From the NCBI RefSeq assembly GCF_001887355.1, contig NZ_MPIN01000012.1, positions 218,124 through 282,123 of the forward strand: a stretch of DNA of 64,000 bases, written 5' to 3'. The translations under genes were made by a program, and so were the position numbers. Below are positions 14,024 through 22,362 of this stretch, piece by piece (position 1 is the first letter of the stretch; each line of letters opens with the position of its first letter). Under the pieces are notes generated by a model. That model saw only the letters and a list, made by a program, of their open reading frames with translations. It did no database searches and was not told where the DNA came from. Source of the stretch: Cystobacter ferrugineus (GTDB lineage Bacteria; Myxococcota; Myxococcia; Myxococcales; Myxococcaceae).

Positions 14024-14713
14024 GTGAGCCATACCTACGAGTACCCGCGTCCGGCGTTGACGGTGGATTGCGTGGTGTTCGGCCTGGACGAGGAGGACTT
14101 GAAGGTGCTCCTCATCCGCCGGGACCTGGAGCCCTTCCAGGGCCGGTGGGCCCTGCCGGGTGGTTTCGTGCGCATGGACGAGTCGCTCGAGGACGCCGCG
14201 CGCCGCGAGCTCCAGGAAGAGGCCGGCATCCGCCCGGTCCTGCTGGAGCAGCTCTATACCTTCGGCGCCCCGGGGAGGGATCCGCGCGACCGGGTGGTGA
14301 GCGTGGCCTACTTCGCCCTGGTGAAGCTGTCCGACCATCGCGTCCACGCCGCCACCGACGCGCGCGAGGCCGCCTGGTTCCCCGTCTGGGACATGCCCAA
14401 GCTCGCCTTCGACCACGCCGACATCGCCGCCACGGCGCTCCAGCGGCTCAAGGGCAAGGTGCGCTACCAGCCCCTGGGCTTCGAGCTGCTTCCCCCCAAG
14501 TTCACCCTCACCCAGCTCCAGCGCCTGTACGAGAAGATCCTCGAGCGCGAGCTCGACAAGCGCAACTTCCGCAAGAAGCTGCTCGCCATGGGGCTGCTCG
14601 AGGAGCTCGACGAGGTGGAGCAGGACGTCTCCCACCGCGCCGCACGCCTCTACCGCTTCGACCACAAGAAATACAAACAACTGGAGAAGGCCGGCTTCAA
14701 CTTCGAGCTGTGA
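14024..14713 (+). CDS. Nudix-domain transcriptional regulator, NrtR-like
   Basis: 229 residues from GTG 14024. Residues 1-145 are a Nudix domain with a complete box GX5EX7REUXEEXGU ([23 protein letters not shown], ~47-69). Residues ~150-229 are a winged-helix-like domain with the family signature ...[22 protein letters not shown]...[16 protein letters not shown]. This architecture is that of NrtR, the Nudix-derived repressor of NAD biosynthesis and salvage genes that senses ADP-ribose. The intact box means hydrolysis is possible, unlike many NrtR proteins. A 39-bp palindrome lies just after its stop, and a sister palindrome lies before a nicotinamidase-like gene, so both are likely targets. 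Confidence 0.85.
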
Positions 14714-14726
14714 CGCCCTCCTTTCG

Positions 14727-14755
14727 TTGACTTCGTGTTCTGACGACACTAACTT
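14727..14755 (+). promoter_or_regulatory. Sigma-70 type promoter for PP2C-kinase operon
   Basis: TTGACT (14727-14732), a 17-bp spacer and TAACTT (14750-14755) precede the PP2C gene. The -10 lies inside the palindromic operator, so a bound repressor would occlude RNA polymerase. The same -35/operator spacing (7 bp from start of -35 to start of palindrome) occurs at 20410. Confidence 0.7.
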
Positions 14756-14772
14756 GGTGTCCGTCGAACACG
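14734..14772. promoter_or_regulatory. 39-bp palindromic operator, copy 1
   Basis: A dyad centred at 14753 with outer arms CGTGTTC (14734-14740) and GAACACG (14766-14772) and an inner ACAC/GTGT pair; 14 of 19 base pairs are symmetric. It is identical to the copy at 20417-20455 at 25 of 39 positions, including the core GACACTA-NN-TTGGTGTC. It probably binds the Nudix regulator encoded immediately upstream (inference). Confidence 0.7.
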
Positions 14773-14791
14773 GAGTCAGGGGAGGAGCGCC

Positions 14792-15598
14792 ATGTCGCCG
14801 TTGCCCTTCGAGCTCGCCGCCGCCACCGTCCAGGGCCGGGAACACGCCCGGGCGGGGCGCAACAACCAGGATGCCTTCTTCACCCGGACGAGCCCCCGGG
14901 GCCTCGCCGCCGCCGTCGCGGATGGGTGTGGCAGTGGGCGCCAGAGCGAGCTGGGCGCGCAGCTCGGCGCCCGCCGCGCGGTGGAGGGCGCGCTCGCGCT
15001 GCTGGAGGAAGGCGTGTCACCCGGCTCGCCCGGCTTCCTCGCGCGGCTGGAGGCGGACCTGCTGTGCTTCCTGGGAGGGCTCGCCCGGGAGCTGGGACCC
15101 TCGGCCGTGGGCGAGGCCCTGCTCTTCACGCTCGTGGGCGCCGTGCTCACCCCGGACGAGGTGCTCGTCTTCTGCGCGGGTGATGGGCTCTGGGCCCTCA
15201 ATGGCGAGGTCCATCCGATCGGCCCCTTTCCGGGCAACGCGCCGCCGTACCTCGCCTATGGCCTGTTCAAACCGGGCACGGGCTCGCTGTGCTCCCTGAC
15301 GCTGAGACCCACGGCGGAGGTGCACTCGCTGGTGCTCGGCACGGATGGGGCCGCGGACCTGGGCGGGCTCGCCGGGGCGTGTGTCCCCGACAGCGACGAG
15401 CCCGTGGGGCCACTGTCCCGGTTGTGGACCGAGGACCGGTACTTCTCCCATCCGGACGCGCTGCGCCGCCGCCTGTGGCTGCTCAACCGCGAGTCCGTCC
15501 GCGCCGACTTCACCGCCCGGCGCCTCGTGCGCGTGCCGGGCCTGCTCGCCGACGACACCACCCTCGTCATCCTGCGCCGCCAGCGGGAGAGGAACTGA
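14792..15598 (+). CDS. PP2C-family Ser/Thr protein phosphatase
   Basis: 268 residues, cytoplasmic. PP2C motifs are visible in order: GRNNQDAFF with metal-binding Asp27, VADGCGSG with Asp44, LVLGTDGAADL, and the closing DDTTLVIL. The protein is compact, without regulatory insertions, and is of the type paired with bacterial protein kinases. A kinase gene starts 4 bp after its stop, so the phosphatase probably reverses that kinase's action. It is transcribed from the operator-overlapped promoter at 14727. With the kinase and the vWA protein at 21583 it matches the composition of TerY-P triads. Confidence 0.9.
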   Translation: MSPLPFELAAATVQGREHARAGRNNQDAFFTRTSPRGLAAAVADGCGSGRQSELGAQLGARRAVEGALALLEEGVSPGSPGFLARLEADLLCFLGGLARELGPSAVGEALLFTLVGAVLTPDEVLVFCAGDGLWALNGEVHPIGPFPGNAPPYLAYGLFKPGTGSLCSLTLRPTAEVHSLVLGTDGAADLGGLAGACVPDSDEPVGPLSRLWTEDRYFSHPDALRRRLWLLNRESVRADFTARRLVRVPGLLADDTTLVILRRQRERN

Positions 15599-15602
15599 CG
15601 CC

Positions 15603-17471
15603 ATGGACGTCTATCTGGAAGGGAAGAAGCTCCGGGTGGATCCGTCGAAGGCCCTCGGCAAGGGGGGCGAGGCGGATGTGTTCGACCTGGGGGATGGACG
15701 GGTCCTCAAGCTCTTCAAGCCTCCCGAGCACCCCGACTACGACGCCCAGCCCGAGCAGCAGGCCGCCGCCCGCGCCCGGCTCGCCGAGCACCAGCACAAG
15801 CTGCCCGCGTTCCCCCGGCCACTGCCCCCGCGCGTGGTATCGCCCCAGACGCTCGCGACGGACCGGCGGGGGAAGGAGGTGCGGGGCTACGCCATGCGCA
15901 AGCTGGAGGGCGCCGAGCCCCTGCGCCGCTTTGGAGATCCCGCCTTCCGCCGCGCGGGCGTGCCGTCCTCCCGGGTGGCGGCGATCTTCCGGGACCTGCA
16001 CCGCACGCTCGGCGCGCTGCATGGCGGGGGCGTGGTGGTGGGGGACTTCAATGACTTGAACATCCTCGTCATCGGCGACGACGCCTGGCTCATCGACGCG
16101 GACAGCTTTCAGTTCGGGCCCTACCTGTCCACCGTCTTCACCGAGCGGTTCCTGGATCCACTGCGCCTGGGAGGGAAGGCTCAGGGATTGAGCCCCTCGC
16201 GTCCGGCCTCCGCGGACAGTGATTGGTATGCCTTCAGCGTCGCGCTGATGCAGAGCCTGCTCGGGGTGGGGCCGTATGGGGGCATCCACCGCCCGCGTGC
16301 GTCTGGAGCCAAGGCCACGCCGACGGCCCGGGTGCTCCAACGCCTCACCGTCTTCCACCCGGACGTGCAGTATCCCAAACCGGCCACGCCCCTCGGCATG
16401 CTTCCGGATGAGCTGCTGCACCGGCTGCATCGCGTCTTCGTCGAGGACGAGCGGGGCGCCTTTCCCCTGCCGTTGCTGGACGCGCTGCGCTTCACCGTGT
16501 GCGCCTCGTGTGGCGTGGAGCATGCGCGGGCGTCCTGTCCCACGTGCCGTCCGAGCGCGACACGGACGGCCATGCCCATCACCACCGTGCGCGGCCAGGT
16601 GGTGGCCACGCGTCTGTTCACCACCGAGGGAGTCCTGCTGCACGCCTGTGTGGAGGACGGCACCGCGCGCTGGCTGTTCCACGAGCGGGGGGCATACCGG
16701 CGCGAGGATGGCTCGGTGGTGCTCCAGGGCCCGTTGAACCCGGCGCTGCACTGGGCGCTCCAGGGCGGGAGCACGCTGGTGGGGCAGGGCACGGAGTTCG
16801 CGGTGCTGGTGCCGGGACGGCCTCCCGAGCGGCTCGGGGTGGACGCGCCGGAGCAACGTCCGGCTTTCGCCACCAACGCGCGTCACCGGTACTGGGCGCA
16901 AGGAGGGGCGCTGTGGCGGGACGGGGCGTTCGGTCCCGAGCGCCTGGGGGAGGTGCTCGAGGGGCAGACGCGGCTCTTTGTGGGACCGCGTTTCGGGCTG
17001 GGCTTCCACCGGGCGGGAGCGCTGCGCGGCGCCTTCGTCTTCAATGCCGAGCGTCCGGGTCTCAAGGATGGACTGACGTTGCCCTGGCCCTCGGGGAGGC
17101 TGGTGGACGCGGAGGCGGTGTTCGAGGGGGCGGTGTGCTGGCTGTTCCTCGCGGAGGAGACGGGAGGGCGCACGGTGCACCACTGCGTGGTGCTGGGGGC
17201 GGATGGGGTGATGAGGGCGAGCGCGACGGCGGAGGCCGGGGATGGCTCGTGGCTGGGGACGCTCCGGGGCAAGTGCGCGGCGGGGGAGGCGCTCTTCGCG
17301 GCGACCGACGCGGGACTGGTCCGGGTGGAAGTGCGTCAGGGTCGGGTGGAGGTCGTCCGCGAGTTCCCCGACACCGAACCCTTCGTCGACGCCGACAGCC
17401 GCCTGCTCCTCACGCGACAGGGATTCGTCGTCGTGGGCCGCCAGGAGGTGACGGCGCTGCGGATGACGTGA
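15603..17471 (+). CDS. Ser/Thr protein kinase with zinc ribbon and beta-propeller-like C-terminal domain
   Basis: 622 residues. Kinase fold: glycine loop ALGKGGEADVF (17-27), Lys36, catalytic loop GDFNDLN (Asp148, Asn153), and metal-binding LIDADSFQ (Asp165) in place of DFG, as in the TerY-associated kinases. A zinc ribbon follows: C300-x2-C303-x8-C312-x2-C315. Residues ~320-622 are beta-rich with repeated short strands (LFVGPRFGLGFHRAG, LFAATDAGLVRVEV, RQGFVVVGRQEV), consistent with a propeller-like sensor or scaffold. It is co-transcribed with the PP2C gene. A degenerate copy of its 3' end survives at 18408. Confidence 0.88.
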   Translation: MDVYLEGKKLRVDPSKALGKGGEADVFDLGDGRVLKLFKPPEHPDYDAQPEQQAAARARLAEHQHKLPAFPRPLPPRVVSPQTLATDRRGKEVRGYAMRKLEGAEPLRRFGDPAFRRAGVPSSRVAAIFRDLHRTLGALHGGGVVVGDFNDLNILVIGDDAWLIDADSFQFGPYLSTVFTERFLDPLRLGGKAQGLSPSRPASADSDWYAFSVALMQSLLGVGPYGGIHRPRASGAKATPTARVLQRLTVFHPDVQYPKPATPLGMLPDELLHRLHRVFVEDERGAFPLPLLDALRFTVCASCGVEHARASCPTCRPSATRTAMPITTVRGQVVATRLFTTEGVLLHACVEDGTARWLFHERGAYRREDGSVVLQGPLNPALHWALQGGSTLVGQGTEFAVLVPGRPPERLGVDAPEQRPAFATNARHRYWAQGGALWRDGAFGPERLGEVLEGQTRLFVGPRFGLGFHRAGALRGAFVFNAERPGLKDGLTLPWPSGRLVDAEAVFEGAVCWLFLAEETGGRTVHHCVVLGADGVMRASATAEAGDGSWLGTLRGKCAAGEALFAATDAGLVRVEVRQGRVEVVREFPDTEPFVDADSRLLLTRQGFVVVGRQEVTALRMT

Positions 17472-17557
17472 GCCCTGTGGGGTTGAACTCCTATGCTCCC
17501 ACCGCGACGGGAACCTCCCTTTCTCGCTGATTCTTGGATTCGACAGGACCCATTGAT

Positions 17558-18361
17558 ATGGTGCCGGAACAGCATTCGTCTCTTTTGTTCCCCTCCTTCC
17601 TGCGCGGGAGTTACTCGGAAGTTCAACAGAAGGCGCACGAAGAGGGCCTGCGATGTGGCAGGCAATATTTGAAGGACGGCCGTTTTCCTCCCCCTCAAGC
17701 GTTGCTGGAAGTGTCTCCTGGCGAAGTGGTGGTGGCCAACGATACGATCGACTTCAACCGCGAGCGTTCCGCTTGGCGGTTGCATCGGGTGCCGCATGTC
17801 CTGAGTGGTTTGTCGGAAGCGTTGGATTGGCAGGATACCTACCCTTTGAGAGATGCCTACGAAGCCTTCTGTCGAGAGACGCCCTGGGGGGCGTTGTACT
17901 TCGCGATTGGGCGAACCGCTCCCCATGGAGCGGAGCGCATGTCGCTGCGCTTCCAAGCCCTGTTGCGTTTCTGGGAGCCGCTCGAATCCGCGCGCTATCT
18001 CTTCAGTTCCCCAGGCACCGCGCTGACCCTGGGGAAACTGGTGGAGGAGTCCTGCTCCTGGGCCATGGATGCTTGGTGCTTGGTAGGAGGAGATTCAGTC
18101 CGAGAGCGCCTGAATACAGCGGCGGAACGCATGTCACGAGCAACCCGTGAGGATAGCATGGAGGCCATCCTCCGCCAGTTGCCCCGAGTTCTCACCCTCG
18201 CGCGCGACTTGAAGGACCGGGAAGCGGTGGCCGACCCCTTCTTCCAGCGCGAGCGACTCTCCTCGCTCGACTCCGCTGCCTTCGAGCGGGTGTCGGGGGC
18301 GCATCCGGGGACCTTGATCGAAAAGCTGTACGACTGGGATCTCGAACTCGGGACGCATTAG
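17558..18361 (+). CDS. Hypothetical protein in accessory segment
   Basis: 267 residues from ATG 17558 (a TTG at 17534 would add 8). Not recognised. It is predicted mixed alpha/beta then helical (RLNTAAERMSRATREDSMEAILRQLPRVLTLARDL), with no signal peptide or membrane helix. Codon use is less GC-biased than in the kinase before it. It lies between the intact kinase gene and a degenerate copy of the kinase 3' end, as though it arrived by a recombination that duplicated that end. A role in self/non-self or immunity functions is conceivable but nothing in the sequence proves it. Confidence 0.65.
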   Translation: MVPEQHSSLLFPSFLRGSYSEVQQKAHEEGLRCGRQYLKDGRFPPPQALLEVSPGEVVVANDTIDFNRERSAWRLHRVPHVLSGLSEALDWQDTYPLRDAYEAFCRETPWGALYFAIGRTAPHGAERMSLRFQALLRFWEPLESARYLFSSPGTALTLGKLVEESCSWAMDAWCLVGGDSVRERLNTAAERMSRATREDSMEAILRQLPRVLTLARDLKDREAVADPFFQRERLSSLDSAAFERVSGAHPGTLIEKLYDWDLELGTH

Positions 18362-18719
18362 GGGCGTATGGGGAGCCCTCGAAGGGGCACGGTGCCACTG
18401 GATGGGGGAGGTCGTCCAGGAGTTCTCCGACTCCGAGCGCTTGGTTGACGCCGATGGTAGTCTGCTCTTCTCTCGTTAGAGGGTGCTGAATTGAATAGGC
18501 CGCAAGATGCAGAGCAGCCGAGTAGGCATAATAAGGAATGTGCTATGAGTTGATCCATCTCTCCCAAGATGAGGAGCAGTTCAACACCCTCTCCGCGACC
18601 TCCTTCTGACTCTATGTCTCAACTTGCCCTCTCCGTCATTGCTACAATATGTTCCCAACTGGCAAATGGGATGCTAAACTGCGACGAGGTCTGTGGTTCT
18701 GTGCGGAGGGAGCAACTGA
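18362..18719. other. Gene-free stretch with kinase remnant and possible promoter
   Basis: 358 bp between two plus-strand genes. It holds the kinase remnant (18408-18479). Beyond it GC drops visibly, and an extended -10 element (TGCTACAAT at 18640-18648) may be the promoter of the membrane-protein gene; no good -35 is seen. The rest shows nothing recognisable. Confidence 0.5.
18408..18479 (+). pseudogene. Degenerate duplicate of the 3' end of the kinase gene
   Basis: Read in frame, this 72-bp stretch gives EVVQEFSDSERLVDADGSLLFSR then stop. It aligns without gaps to residues near the kinase C terminus, EVVREFPDTEPFVDADSRLLLTR (nucleotides about 17350-17421), with most nucleotides identical. 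There is no start codon or longer coding frame. It is best explained as the scar of a duplication or insertion that placed the intervening gene inside this locus. Confidence 0.75.
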
Positions 18720-19697
18720 ATGAGTGTCTCGGATGTTCAGATATTTGAGGCGAGGCTTGACGGAGTACAACAGGCTGCTAGTCGAGCACGAGGAGTTTTC
18801 CTCGCTGTCACCGTGATTGCCTCGACAACAATCGCTAGTAGTTTTTCAATGTACTTTTCCTGGTTGAGAAATCTTATCAAGGTCGTGCCTGGGGGGATTC
18901 TTACGAAAGAAAATCTTGCGAATGGAAGTCTTGCAGTTGAAAGCACTTTTAAAAGAGTTTTGGAGGAAAGTCTTGTTAGGGGTTGGGTGGATTCGGCTTT
19001 TGTGACTGTTCCTGGCTTGGGCGCCAAGTTCGCGATTGTTGATGCCGCTGTGTGGGCAACAGGCGGGTTGCTCATTTCCGCACTCTGGCTTTTCTTTTGC
19101 CTTAGGCGAGAGAATCACCTGATCGGCTATGTGCTTACAGACGCTTATGATCTTAAGGATAAGATTCCAGGCATCTATCCGCTTGTCGTGCATTCCGTTC
19201 GGGCGTCGCAAGTGTTTGCCACGGGAAGTGCGCGGAATAAGTCATTTTCAAGCATGAATGATGTGAAAGCTGTAAAGGAGAAACCACAGCAAGGTGACAG
19301 TGTTCTTGAGGCTATTCCTCGTGGAGTTATGGTTTTTTTAATGGGTTTGCCCGCTTTGGGGTGTTTCTGTGTGCTCTTTTGTGATTTTTTGAGTGTGTTC
19401 TATGTGCCTGCTCTGTTTCGGGGGAGTAGTGACCCGATTGGGTGGGAGAATGTGAAGGGGAGTCCGCAATTCTGGCTGATGATTGGATTCAATGTGCTGA
19501 TGCTGTTGTCATGCTTTCTGCTCGGAGTTCTTGCTGGCAGGTATCAACTCGCCACGCGAAAGCTTGTCTCTGAGACGGTTGGAATTCTAAGGGGCCTGGA
19601 ATCAAGTAGTCTAGCGCATTTGCCTCTGTCGCAAGCAGAAGATAACCAGCAAGGCCTTCCTTCTTCTGTAGTTGGTGAAAAGTCGGCCATGAAATAG
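18720..19697 (+). CDS. Low-GC orphan membrane protein, function unknown
   Basis: 325 residues with GGAGGG 8 bases before the ATG. Four hydrophobic segments are visible: about residues 26-50, 105-128, 200-232 and 252-275. An extracytoplasmic or cytoplasmic loop lies between the first two, and the C-terminal tail is polar. Base composition is near 50% GC and codons such as TTT, AAA and TCT are common, very unlike the ~70% GC flanks, so recent horizontal acquisition is likely. No family was recognised. It is convergent with a SitI3-like immunity pseudogene, so a link to inter-bacterial competition is possible but unproven. Confidence 0.75.
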   Translation: MSVSDVQIFEARLDGVQQAASRARGVFLAVTVIASTTIASSFSMYFSWLRNLIKVVPGGILTKENLANGSLAVESTFKRVLEESLVRGWVDSAFVTVPGLGAKFAIVDAAVWATGGLLISALWLFFCLRRENHLIGYVLTDAYDLKDKIPGIYPLVVHSVRASQVFATGSARNKSFSSMNDVKAVKEKPQQGDSVLEAIPRGVMVFLMGLPALGCFCVLFCDFLSVFYVPALFRGSSDPIGWENVKGSPQFWLMIGFNVLMLLSCFLLGVLAGRYQLATRKLVSETVGILRGLESSSLAHLPLSQAEDNQQGLPSSVVGEKSAMK

Positions 19698-19740
19698 GGG
19701 CCGACCTCATGACGTGATGTGGCTCGTGCGGAGCATGAGT

Positions 19741-20197
19741 CTATCGCAGGGGGGACGGCAAGGGGCGACGTTCGAAGGGGAGGGCGAGCCTGCTTCTCAG
19801 CCATTTGTCATCCTCCCACAGGCGATAGCCGGAGTTGAAGGTGAGTTTCCCGCAGAGTCTTTGAAAGACAATGGTCTCTCCATTGAAGAGGAGGACCGCG
19901 TCCTGGCTGTACTCCAGTAGGAGTACGACGGCTTGGAGTGTGGTCTCCTTGAATCTGCCCCAGTCCGAATTGTTGATGTGGCGGAACCCGATTCCCAACG
20001 TCGGGGTGAAGTGAAATCCATCCCGGATGATGCTTTGCGTGATCGCGAGCGGCTCCGTGGCGGTGAGCTGCACGGACTCGTCGAACAAGAAAGAGCCATC
20101 CTCACCCCAGGCGAGTCCAGGTGATTTGCCGGTCAGCGCCTCCAGCGCTTGTCGTGGCTTCGCGGGTCGCCAGTTCGAGATCGTATTCAAGCGCCAC
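19741..20197 (-). pseudogene. SitI3-like immunity protein gene, frameshifted
   Basis: From GTG 20197 (AGGAG six bases upstream) the minus strand reads VALEYDLELATREATTS, the usual opening of SitI3-family immunity proteins. The rest of the family pattern (...FGFxPT-like FHFTPTLGIGFRHIN, then DAVLLFNGETIVFQRLCGKLTFNS and a closing LPFERRPLPS) is in a different frame ending at 19741. The total of 457 nt is one base more than a multiple of three, so a single-base insertion near 20150 explains the split. SitI proteins protect Myxococcus from SitA lipoprotein toxins passed between cells. This copy is either broken or carries a sequence error. Confidence 0.7.
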
Positions 20198-20409
20198 TTC
20201 GAACTCCTGTTGATGCGGGAGGGCCTGGCATCAGCCGCACGACGAGGAAGGTGCACCGCGACGTGTACACCAGCACCTCGAGGGCCAGCGGGTCCAGGTG
20301 TTCAACGAGGGGCGCGGCTGCCCCGTCCCATGGGAACTCGGGGGGGCGTCTATCCGGTGGACCCGACAGGGCGCATGGCGCGCGCCAGCGGCACTTCGCC
20401 CTCTTCGAT

Positions 20410-20438
20410 TTGACAACGTGTAACCTGGACACTATGTT
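20410..20438 (+). promoter_or_regulatory. Sigma-70 type promoter for nicotinamidase-vWA operon
   Basis: A perfect TTGACA (20410-20415), a 17-bp spacer and TATGTT (20433-20438). As at 14727, the promoter is overlapped by the palindromic operator starting 7 bp after the start of the -35. It lies 36 bp before the nicotinamidase-like start codon. Confidence 0.78.
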
Positions 20439-20455
20439 GGTGTCGTGGTTACACG
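20417..20455. promoter_or_regulatory. 39-bp palindromic operator, copy 2
   Basis: A dyad centred at 20436 with perfect 9-bp outer arms CGTGTAACC (20417-20425) and GGTTACACG (20447-20455) and an inner ACAC/GTGT pair; 15 of 19 base pairs are symmetric. It shares 25 of 39 positions with copy 1, including the core. Where the two copies differ, each tends to keep its own symmetry, which is the mark of selection for protein binding. Confidence 0.78.
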
Positions 20456-20473
20456 AAGTCGGGAGGACGCACC

Positions 20474-21544
20474 ATGAAGGCCGTTTCGAAGGTCCAGGAG
20501 CTTCCGCTGCCGTCGTTCTACGCGCCCGCCAATGCGGGGATGTTCGCCTACGGCCCCAACGCCTCGCGGCTCCAGTCCGAGGCCGGTGCCTGGCGCGACT
20601 CCCAGGGGCTCGCCGCCTCCGCCACCGACTCGTTCAACCTGCACCTGCTGCTCATCGACGTGCAGAAGGACTTCTGCTTCCCCGAGGGCTCGCTCTACGT
20701 CGCGGGCCGCAGCGGCCGCGGCGCCATCGATGACAACCGCCGCATCGCCGAGTTCATCTACAAGAACCTCGGCGCCCTCACCCACGTCACCACCACGCTC
20801 GACACGCACTTCGCCTACCAGATCTTCTTCCCCTCCTTCTGGGTGGACCAGGACGATCAGCCCCTCACCGCCCACCGCGAAATCACCCGCGAGCAGATCG
20901 AGCGCGGCCAGGTGCGCCCCAACCCCGCCATGGCCAAATGGCTCTGCGGTGGCAACTACCCCTGGCTGCTCAAGCAGGTGAAGTACTACTGCGAGGAATT
21001 GGAGCGCGCGGGCAAGTACACCCTCTACCTGTGGCCCCCTCACTGCCTGCTCGGCAGTGATGGCCATGCGCTCGCCGGCGTGGTGCAGGAGGCTCGCCTG
21101 TTCCACTCGTTCGTGCGCGGCGCCCAGTCCTGGGCCGAGGTCAAGGGCGGCAACCCCTTCACCGAGAACTACTCCGTGCTGCGCCCCGAGGTCCTCACCC
21201 GCCACGACGGGCAGCCGCTCGCCCAGCGCAACACCCAGTTCCTCAAGACGCTCCTCACCGCCGACGCCGTCGTCATCGCCGGCCAGGCCGCCAGCCACTG
21301 CGTGAAGAGCTCCATCGATGATCTGCTCGGGGAGATCCTCGCCCAGGACGCCGCGCTCGCGCGCAAGGTGTACCTGCTCACCGACTGCATGTCCGCCGTC
21401 ACCGTCCCCGATGGCAAGGGCGGTTTCGCCGCCGACTTCACCCCCCAGGCCGACGCCGCGCTCCAGCGCTTCGCCGACGCGGGCATGCACCTGGTCAAGT
21501 CCACCCAGCCCCTCGCCTCGTGGCCGGATCTGCGCATCGCCTGA
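20474..21544 (+). CDS. Nicotinamidase-like cysteine hydrolase (isochorismatase superfamily)
   Basis: 356 residues, longer than the ~200 of typical nicotinamidases owing to an N-terminal extension and insertions. The catalytic triad appears intact: Asp62 (LLLIDVQKDFCFP), Lys224 (AEVKGGNPFTENYS) and Cys276 (AGQAASHCVKSS). The metal site residues Asp110, His112 (TTLDTHFAYQIFFPSFW) and His190 (LWPPHCLLGS) fit the nicotinamidase pattern, so hydrolysis of nicotinamide to nicotinate in NAD salvage is the likely reaction. It is transcribed from an operator-controlled promoter and followed after 38 bp by the vWA gene. Confidence 0.85.
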   Translation: MKAVSKVQELPLPSFYAPANAGMFAYGPNASRLQSEAGAWRDSQGLAASATDSFNLHLLLIDVQKDFCFPEGSLYVAGRSGRGAIDDNRRIAEFIYKNLGALTHVTTTLDTHFAYQIFFPSFWVDQDDQPLTAHREITREQIERGQVRPNPAMAKWLCGGNYPWLLKQVKYYCEELERAGKYTLYLWPPHCLLGSDGHALAGVVQEARLFHSFVRGAQSWAEVKGGNPFTENYSVLRPEVLTRHDGQPLAQRNTQFLKTLLTADAVVIAGQAASHCVKSSIDDLLGEILAQDAALARKVYLLTDCMSAVTVPDGKGGFAADFTPQADAALQRFADAGMHLVKSTQPLASWPDLRIA

Positions 21545-21582
21545 CTTCCCTCGCCGTCCCTCCGACTCGAAAGGAATCCGAC

Positions 21583-22362
21583 ATGAGCTCTTCTCCCGTC
21601 TCCCAGCTCCTCGAGGACGCGCACGCCGAGGGCGTCCTCAGTCCCACCTCCCTCCAGGCCCTCACCACCGTGGACCTGGGCGCGCAGATCCAAGCCGGCC
21701 TGGGCATCAGCGTGGACGACGTGCAGTCCAGCGAGGTCGTGCTCGTCACCGTCATGCCGGATGACTCCGGCTCCATGGCGAGCCATGCGCGCACCGTGTG
21801 CGAGGGCCACAACCTCGTGCTCGACGCGCTCCTGGCCAGCCAGCAGAAGGACGGCGTCCTCTTCCACACCCGCTACCTCAATGGCTTCGTGCTCAACCCC
21901 TTCCGGCCCCTGGAGGACGTGGTGCGCATGCACGACAAGAACTACGACCCCGACCAGGGCACACCCCTCTATGATCAGGCGGTGGTGCTGCTCGGCACGG
22001 TGCTCGCCAAGGCGCAGGAGTTCACCCGCAACGGTGTCTCCGCCCGCACCGTCACCCTGCTCATCACCGATGGCGCGGATGCGCACTCCCAGCGCGCCCG
22101 GGCCCGCGAGGTCGCCGCGCTCGTGGAGGACCTGCGCCGCGCCGAGAACCACATCGTCGCGGGCATGGGCATCGACGATGGCAGCACCGACTTCCGCAAG
22201 GTCTTCCGGAGCATGGGCATCGAGGACAAGTGGATCCTCACCCCGGGGCACAACGCCCAGGACATCCGCAAGGCCTTCCAGGTGTTCAGCCAGTCCGCGG
22301 TCCGGGTGAGCCAGGGCGCCGCCACCTTCCATCCCAGTGCCCTGGGCGGCTTCGGGGCGTAG
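21583..22362 (+). CDS. vWA-domain protein, TerY-like
   Basis: 259 residues from ATG 21583 with AAAGGA upstream. A von Willebrand A domain spans ~50-235 with a complete metal-ion adhesion site: D60-x-S62-x-S64 (VMPDDSGSMAS), Thr in DQGTPLYDQA, and Asp in LLITDGADAHS. There is no signal peptide. vWA proteins of the TerY group are encoded with a PP2C phosphatase and a zinc-ribbon kinase in TerY-P triads, which are predicted stress or conflict signalling modules. Those two partners lie 4-7 kb upstream under a matching operator, so this looks like the third member. Confidence 0.85.
   Translation: MSSSPVSQLLEDAHAEGVLSPTSLQALTTVDLGAQIQAGLGISVDDVQSSEVVLVTVMPDDSGSMASHARTVCEGHNLVLDALLASQQKDGVLFHTRYLNGFVLNPFRPLEDVVRMHDKNYDPDQGTPLYDQAVVLLGTVLAKAQEFTRNGVSARTVTLLITDGADAHSQRARAREVAALVEDLRRAENHIVAGMGIDDGSTDFRKVFRSMGIEDKWILTPGHNAQDIRKAFQVFSQSAVRVSQGAATFHPSALGGFGA

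Follow-up and report, generated by a model that had tools for sequence, protein, structure and literature searches.

A decayed copy of a kinase gene's 3′ end lies behind an orphan member of a multicopy gene family at the kinase–nicotinamidase junction of Cystobacter ferrugineus

We analyzed a 64,000-nt stretch of the Cystobacter ferrugineus genome (hereafter, the window) in which a gene cluster at 14024–22362 carries a kinase-like gene and a nicotinamidase-like gene separated by additional DNA. Ahead of the kinase, this cluster has a PP2C gene and a gene for a NUDIX/NrtR-type regulator. The kinase 3′ end, its decayed repeat (hereafter, the scar), and the cargo between the two genes comprise the following features.

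15603–17471, forward strand: kinase-like gene of 622 aa with a C-terminal EFPDTEPFVD motif, source of the repeat (open reading frame; relatives at 44 loci in genome contigs).
17345–17411, forward strand: stretch of the kinase gene that is repeated in the scar.
17472–17557, forward strand: leader of the 17558 gene (leader listing; alignment between this genome and congener G003).
17558–18361, forward strand: the 17558 gene, an orphan member of a multicopy family, 267 aa, probable immunity gene (family matches; pairing with a partner elsewhere).
18362–18395, forward strand: tail of the inserted 17558 unit (homology with G003 stops at 18395).
18404–18470, forward strand: the scar, a decayed copy of the kinase 3′ end (nucleotide alignments to the kinases of this genome and of congener G002).
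18477–18479, forward strand: TAG aligned with a kinase CAG (Gln), a nonsense change (codon alignment).
18480–18719, no strand assigned: spacer, 51% GC (shuffle comparisons).
18720–19697, forward strand: open reading frame of 325 aa, 48% GC, hydrophobic and membrane-protein-like by eye.
19741–20160, reverse strand: SitI3-family (immunity-type) coding stretch (NCBIfam NF040657, E 1.1e-16; three-frame translation).
20474–21544, forward strand: nicotinamidase/isochorismatase-like gene, normally directly 3′ of the kinase (Isochorismatase match below cut-off).

The kinase-like protein had no Pfam match, its kinase-type NCBIfam matches were weak and far under the cut-off, and PADLOC returned one weak match (PD-T4-6, E 0.0072). 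The product of 20474–21544 matched Isochorismatase at E 0.00022 with 21.8 bits, against a cut-off of 27. The order kinase, nicotinamidase-like gene, VWA gene recurs in cyanobacteria, candidate phyla, and others; our literature search found no paper joining at least three of nicotinamidase, von Willebrand, PP2C, and TerY.

In relatives the junction between the two genes is short. With the gap measured as the distance separating the kinase match from the nicotinamidase match behind it, the genes are adjacent, 30–403 nt apart, in 15 other relatives whose kinase is at least 67% identical (G001, G006, G010, G016, G017, G019, L073–L078, and L080–L082; hand count), including the congener G001. L079 duplicates the contig of G019 and L083 that of G006, and L093 and L099 were excluded as their contigs are cut inside the kinase. 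At this identity level, cargo between kinase and nicotinamidase occurs only in the window and in two congeners, G002 and G003. The gap was 54–154 nt in six of the eight relatives compared, about 870 nt in G002, and about 2370 nt in G003. A nicotinamidase stands behind the kinase at 38 of the 44 loci in genome contigs, with a largest gap of about 425 nt; three of the remaining six end at a contig edge inside the kinase, and three (L089, L097, and L115) have sequence behind the kinase with no nicotinamidase match in it. Named records among the kinase loci include Archangium, Myxococcus, Corallococcus, and Citreicoccus, and L075, titled Comamonas sp., sits among them.

Positions 18404–18470 repeat 17345–17411 of the kinase gene with 77.6% DNA identity over 67 nt. 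The translation of 18408–18476 is EVVQEFSDSERLVDADGSLLFSR, the next codon being TAG, and 14 of its 23 residues are identical to the kinase of the same genome. The local score between the scar and the kinase end was 59, compared with at most 34 among 1000 first-order Markov shuffles, and the repeat had an E value of 4.6e-10 when the 2.5-kb flanks of the 17558 gene were compared with each other. In a whole-genome search, the G002 kinase matched the scar over 89 nt (18394–18482, 76%, E 2.8e-11). In a control of the same geometry, none of 110 window positions yielded a repeat at E ≤ 1e-5, and 133 positions spread over ten other kinase loci yielded four matches, which represent two distinct repeats. 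The alignment thus goes beyond chance similarity and bears out the claim of an earlier sequence-only reading that 18408–18479 encodes a match to the kinase C terminus. That reading had called the match the kinase end, which holds for the 3′ part of the gene; the kinase extends 17 codons past the point matched by the TAG, so the scar is not its very end. It had also placed the scar outside any gene, and indeed no open reading frame of at least 80 aa crosses 18408–18479; a 69-aa antisense frame (18358–18567) does span the scar and was given no weight. A third DNA match, on contig 3 (30 nt, 93%, E 1.7e-5), covers a short stretch only and is probably a chance match.

On neither side was further likeness to the kinase above shuffles. 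Shuffled sequences scored as high as 18471–18560 against the kinase end plus leader of the same genome in 357 of 500 trials and against the G002 kinase end in 161 of 500, and 18362–18403, directly upstream of the scar, was no more kinase-like than shuffles (335 of 500). The last of these comparisons bears on the proposal, also made in the sequence-only reading, that a second kinase gene was lost here; in this case a complete gene would have been reduced to the 75–90 nt that remain. A kinase fragment outside the kinase gene does exist, as this proposal requires, but the genome has a single kinase match, and no tandem second kinase was found in the 39 genomes searched, 19 of which carry a match (extra rows were contig splits or weak partial matches, E 2.8e-8 to 6.8e-4). 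Loss of a second kinase gene is therefore quite improbable.

In a DNA search of 96 family genomes, which scored at most the seven best candidates per genome and left the G010 kinase itself unreported, a second copy of the kinase end was reported in one genome; the matches in G002 and G003 were their kinases. A stub more decayed than the scar could accordingly escape this search. The junctions of the 15 short-junction relatives leave little room for an extra stub.

The scar is, to judge from its sequence, a dead fragment with no visible function, since its kinase motif is broken, a nonsense codon stands at 18477, and its changes run mostly from GC to AT. The EFPDTEPFVD-type motif is kept in most of the kinase C-termini listed (myxobacteria, cyanobacteria, and candidate phyla), with variation in distant ones; the scar reads EFSDSERLVD. 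Because the TAG aligns with a kinase CAG, it is a nonsense change and no kept stop. The scar and the kinase of the same genome differ at 17 of 69 nucleotide sites (6, 2, and 9 at the first, second, and third codon positions), so that eight of the 17 differences fall at first or second positions, against one of ten changes in the equivalent stretch when the same kinase is compared with those of G002 (1, 0, 6) and G003 (0, 0, 3). A hand count of 16 scar changes, which omits one site where this genome's kinase is the odd one out, gave nine from GC to AT, one from AT to GC, and six that were neither. That the scar is a chance similarity, a short functional peptide, or an attachment site is extremely improbable: its 23 codons are open in frame, but the score far exceeds the shuffle maximum, the motif is broken, a nonsense codon is present, changes run mostly from GC to AT, a second copy was reported in just one of 96 family genomes (a search of limited sensitivity), and the Pfam and NCBIfam matches of the three window cargo ORFs include no integrase family.

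The cargo begins with the 17558 unit. Homology between the leader and G003 starts right after the kinase stop, and the last ~60 nt of the leader resemble, by eye, the leaders of closer 17558-family copies elsewhere. Since the G003 homology ends at 18395 and the scar begins at 18394–18404, a joint lies at the end of the 17558 unit. Beyond it, 18480–19697 has a GC content of 48–51%, compared with 67–74% in the cluster genes on either side. The membrane-protein-like ORF matched its own genome only among the 25 searched (none of the 24 others) and no Pfam or NCBIfam family. The SitI3-family stretch scored 61.6 bits against NF040657 (cut-off 31) over profile positions 38–139 of 140, so about 37 N-terminal positions are not in frame; ALEYDLELAT, read in another frame within 19741–20256 of the reverse strand, resembles the missing start, and on this basis the gene is probably frameshifted.

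The two congeners carry different cargo at the same junction. G002 has one reverse gene, and G003 has a 17558 orthologue with 86% protein identity to the window copy, a reverse gene of the G002 type (94.9% DNA identity over 570 nt), and a lipoprotein-like ORF. The G003 ORF (locus L061, reverse strand, 211 aa) adjoins the reverse gene between the 17558 orthologue and the nicotinamidase; no family match was obtained in Pfam or NCBIfam, and the two may represent a truncated SitA-like gene and the immunity gene belonging to it.

The 17558 family (~267 aa) had 20 matches in this genome, three of them fragments under 100 aa, and 9, 16, and 18 matches, fragments included, in three congeners; it is present in 16 of the 96 family genomes. 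The 17558 protein had no Pfam match and one meaningless NCBIfam match (E 0.097), and a Pfam search with 36 members gave weak, scattered matches only, the best being VG15 in three members (E 0.0037). Its structure was predicted with confidence (pLDDT 92), and the model had no PDB match at E ≤ 0.001 and a VIA-align Z of at most 3.4. Of 37 copies, 23 are preceded on the same strand, at a distance of no more than 1.6 kb, by a relative of one of two nuclease-like lipoprotein partners; between the last partner match and the gene lie 30 to ~155 nt. The 37 are a subset of the copies found, namely those with at least ~150 aligned residues within the fetched stretches; the 23 were counted by hand and include the two query partners themselves and a few partners broken into pieces (a 54-nt piece at L144 was left uncounted), and one of the 14 copies without a partner, L152, has 22 nt of upstream sequence only. 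Two partner proteins resemble Tox-REase-9 (PF15650) weakly, below the Pfam cut-off of 27.3 bits (E 0.0059 and 0.023; 17.2 and 15.4 bits). A stretch LRPDI...FEIKP in these two is, we presume, reminiscent of PD-(D/E)XK nucleases, and several partner proteins show what we take to be a lipobox-like GC motif. Given the pairing with an upstream lipoprotein gene, the 17558 family probably confers immunity to a nuclease-like lipoprotein toxin. The window copy is an orphan, with no partner toxin gene beside it.

The sequence-only reading had proposed that the 17558 gene and what follows were inserted with duplication of the kinase end. The locus in relatives agrees: the junction is uninterrupted in 15 of them, and the kinase end is repeated behind the 17558 gene, which together argue for insertion. 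As to how the insertion took place, we give an even chance to a displacement: an exchange of cargo, with the kinase gene as anchor, would have left the scar as a 3′ stub, and the junction would serve in this genus as a site where spare (orphan) immunity genes are swapped. Incoming DNA consisting of a kinase end and the 17558 gene would have paired with the resident kinase gene as homologous anchor, while at its other, non-homologous end an illegitimate joint would have formed within the resident kinase's 3′ end. A fragment of this old kinase end would have remained, along with the older cargo, namely the membrane-protein-like ORF and the SitI3-family gene. One cargo would thereby have replaced, or been stacked on, another, and the stub would then have decayed without function. 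What the sequences show is the repeat and its decay, the short junction in relatives, and cargo that differs between congeners; the order of events and the mode of joining are inferred. Displacement would account for a joint where the 17558 unit ends, for the unlike cargo beyond the scar, and for how far the scar has diverged. The final ~50 nt of the kinase are missing from the stub, and displacement would need a further deletion or joint to account for their loss. No strain with the kinase directly before the membrane-protein-like ORF and SitI3 gene was found, and the ORF, as noted, was unmatched in the 24 other genomes.

The main rival is tandem duplication of a unit made up of the kinase 3′ end, leader, and 17558 gene, the scar being the start of the second unit, whose 17558 copy and part of whose kinase end would have been lost on the arrival of the membrane-protein-like ORF and SitI3 gene. 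As expected of a duplication joint, the scar follows immediately on the 17558 unit; against this, in 18480–18720 neither a further leader nor a further 17558 copy rose above shuffles (108 of 500 scored as high), nor did any kinase-end homology. We consider such a duplication possible, though rather less than an even prospect. The origin of the scar bears on it as well. In an unconstrained tree the scar grouped with the G002 kinase (UFBoot 89), but the AU test rejected none of five placements (p 0.12–0.83) and kept the scar with the kinase of its own genome (p 0.28), as a duplication would have it; bp-RELL (0.038) was the sole test to put that placement outside its set. We therefore make no claim on the origin of the scar.

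The scar has diverged further than a copy arising since the separation from G003 should have: 17 differences in 69 sites have a probability of 0.003 at the fourfold-site rate between this genome and G003 (47/389) and of 0.043 at the rate between this genome and G002 (63/393). At one site it lacks the private base of this genome's kinase and keeps that found in all 17 other kinases compared; at two sites it shares the G002 base against this genome and G003, and at two others the base of its own genome's kinase against G002. Its divergence and the missing private base suggest that the scar may derive from an earlier or foreign allele of the kinase, as its stub, and not from recent copying of the present gene. 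Fourfold divergence between this genome and G003 was 23/125 in the 17558 gene and 47/389 in the kinase, which is compatible with common descent of the pair in both genomes.

Stubs of neighboring genes, which speak for displacement, also occur at three other family loci (L125, L123, and L134), the control for which was the same-geometry test alone (the 110 window positions and the 133 in ten kinase loci). A direct repeat across the gene at E ≤ 1e-5 was found for eight of the 37 copies (six of 34 loci); these eight are not independent, as several are repeated toxin–immunity units. At L125 a 699-aa gene, which we take to be histidine-kinase-like by its motifs, faces a 17558-family array, and 74 nt comprising a unit tail and the last codons of this gene recur at one place within the array (84%) and at one place in L123 (86%); the 8.9 kb fetched around L123 contained no match to the 699-aa gene. 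L125 (4072–8363, contig 10 of the C. ferrugineus genome) holds three consecutive family copies; a partner lies directly upstream of two of them, and the flanking units are ~80–89% alike. At L134, ~860 nt of a neighbor's 3′ part are repeated at 89% on the opposite side, beside a family-member fragment. L136 and L124 have short direct repeats. Repeated toxin–immunity units that carry neighbor 3′ ends, as at L125 and L134, lend weight to tandem duplication, which fits these two loci at least as well as displacement does. A broader generalization is tentative and less likely than not: that this large unnamed myxobacterial immunity family spreads as units by anchored illegitimate recombination, carrying 3′ stubs of the last neighbors that would record each gene's route, with the kinase–nicotinamidase junction as a favored landing slot.

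The closest known parallel for displacement is found in the type VI secretion immunity arrays of Vibrio cholerae, where, as described in PMC5361080, homology-facilitated illegitimate recombination is proposed: a homologous anchor combined with an illegitimate joint leaves the 3′ end of the older gene, a mechanism that the authors themselves term putative. As in those arrays, what are here probable orphan immunity genes are stacked downstream of a conserved gene with the older 3′ end shifted back, and a non-homologous joint lies beside a homologous anchor (PMC5361080); a kinase 3′ stub lies behind the unit, and relatives are without the insert. Unlike the arrays described there, the anchor here is the kinase of a conserved cluster instead of an effector or secretion gene, the window copy has no toxin gene, and a single event in one genome is concerned (PMC5361080). 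The 17558 gene sits behind the kinase without a partner toxin, and its putative immunity role is suggested by gene pairing. The Myxococcus SitA/SitI system of lipoprotein toxins transferred by outer-membrane exchange, with their immunity genes, is likewise described as a lipoprotein toxin gene followed by an immunity gene in myxobacteria (PMC5562445), and a SitI3-family stretch lies in the same junction as the 17558 gene. Unlike the Sit proteins, 17558 and the two partners tested match no NCBIfam Sit family.

The scar itself is a genuine but ordinary genomic scar of a known kind, marking an exchange of cargo. Of more interest are the junction slot and the 17558 family around it, which is multicopy, unnamed in Pfam and NCBIfam, and may serve kin discrimination. 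If stubs of neighboring genes regularly accompany such units, the movement of immunity genes would become traceable in social bacteria.
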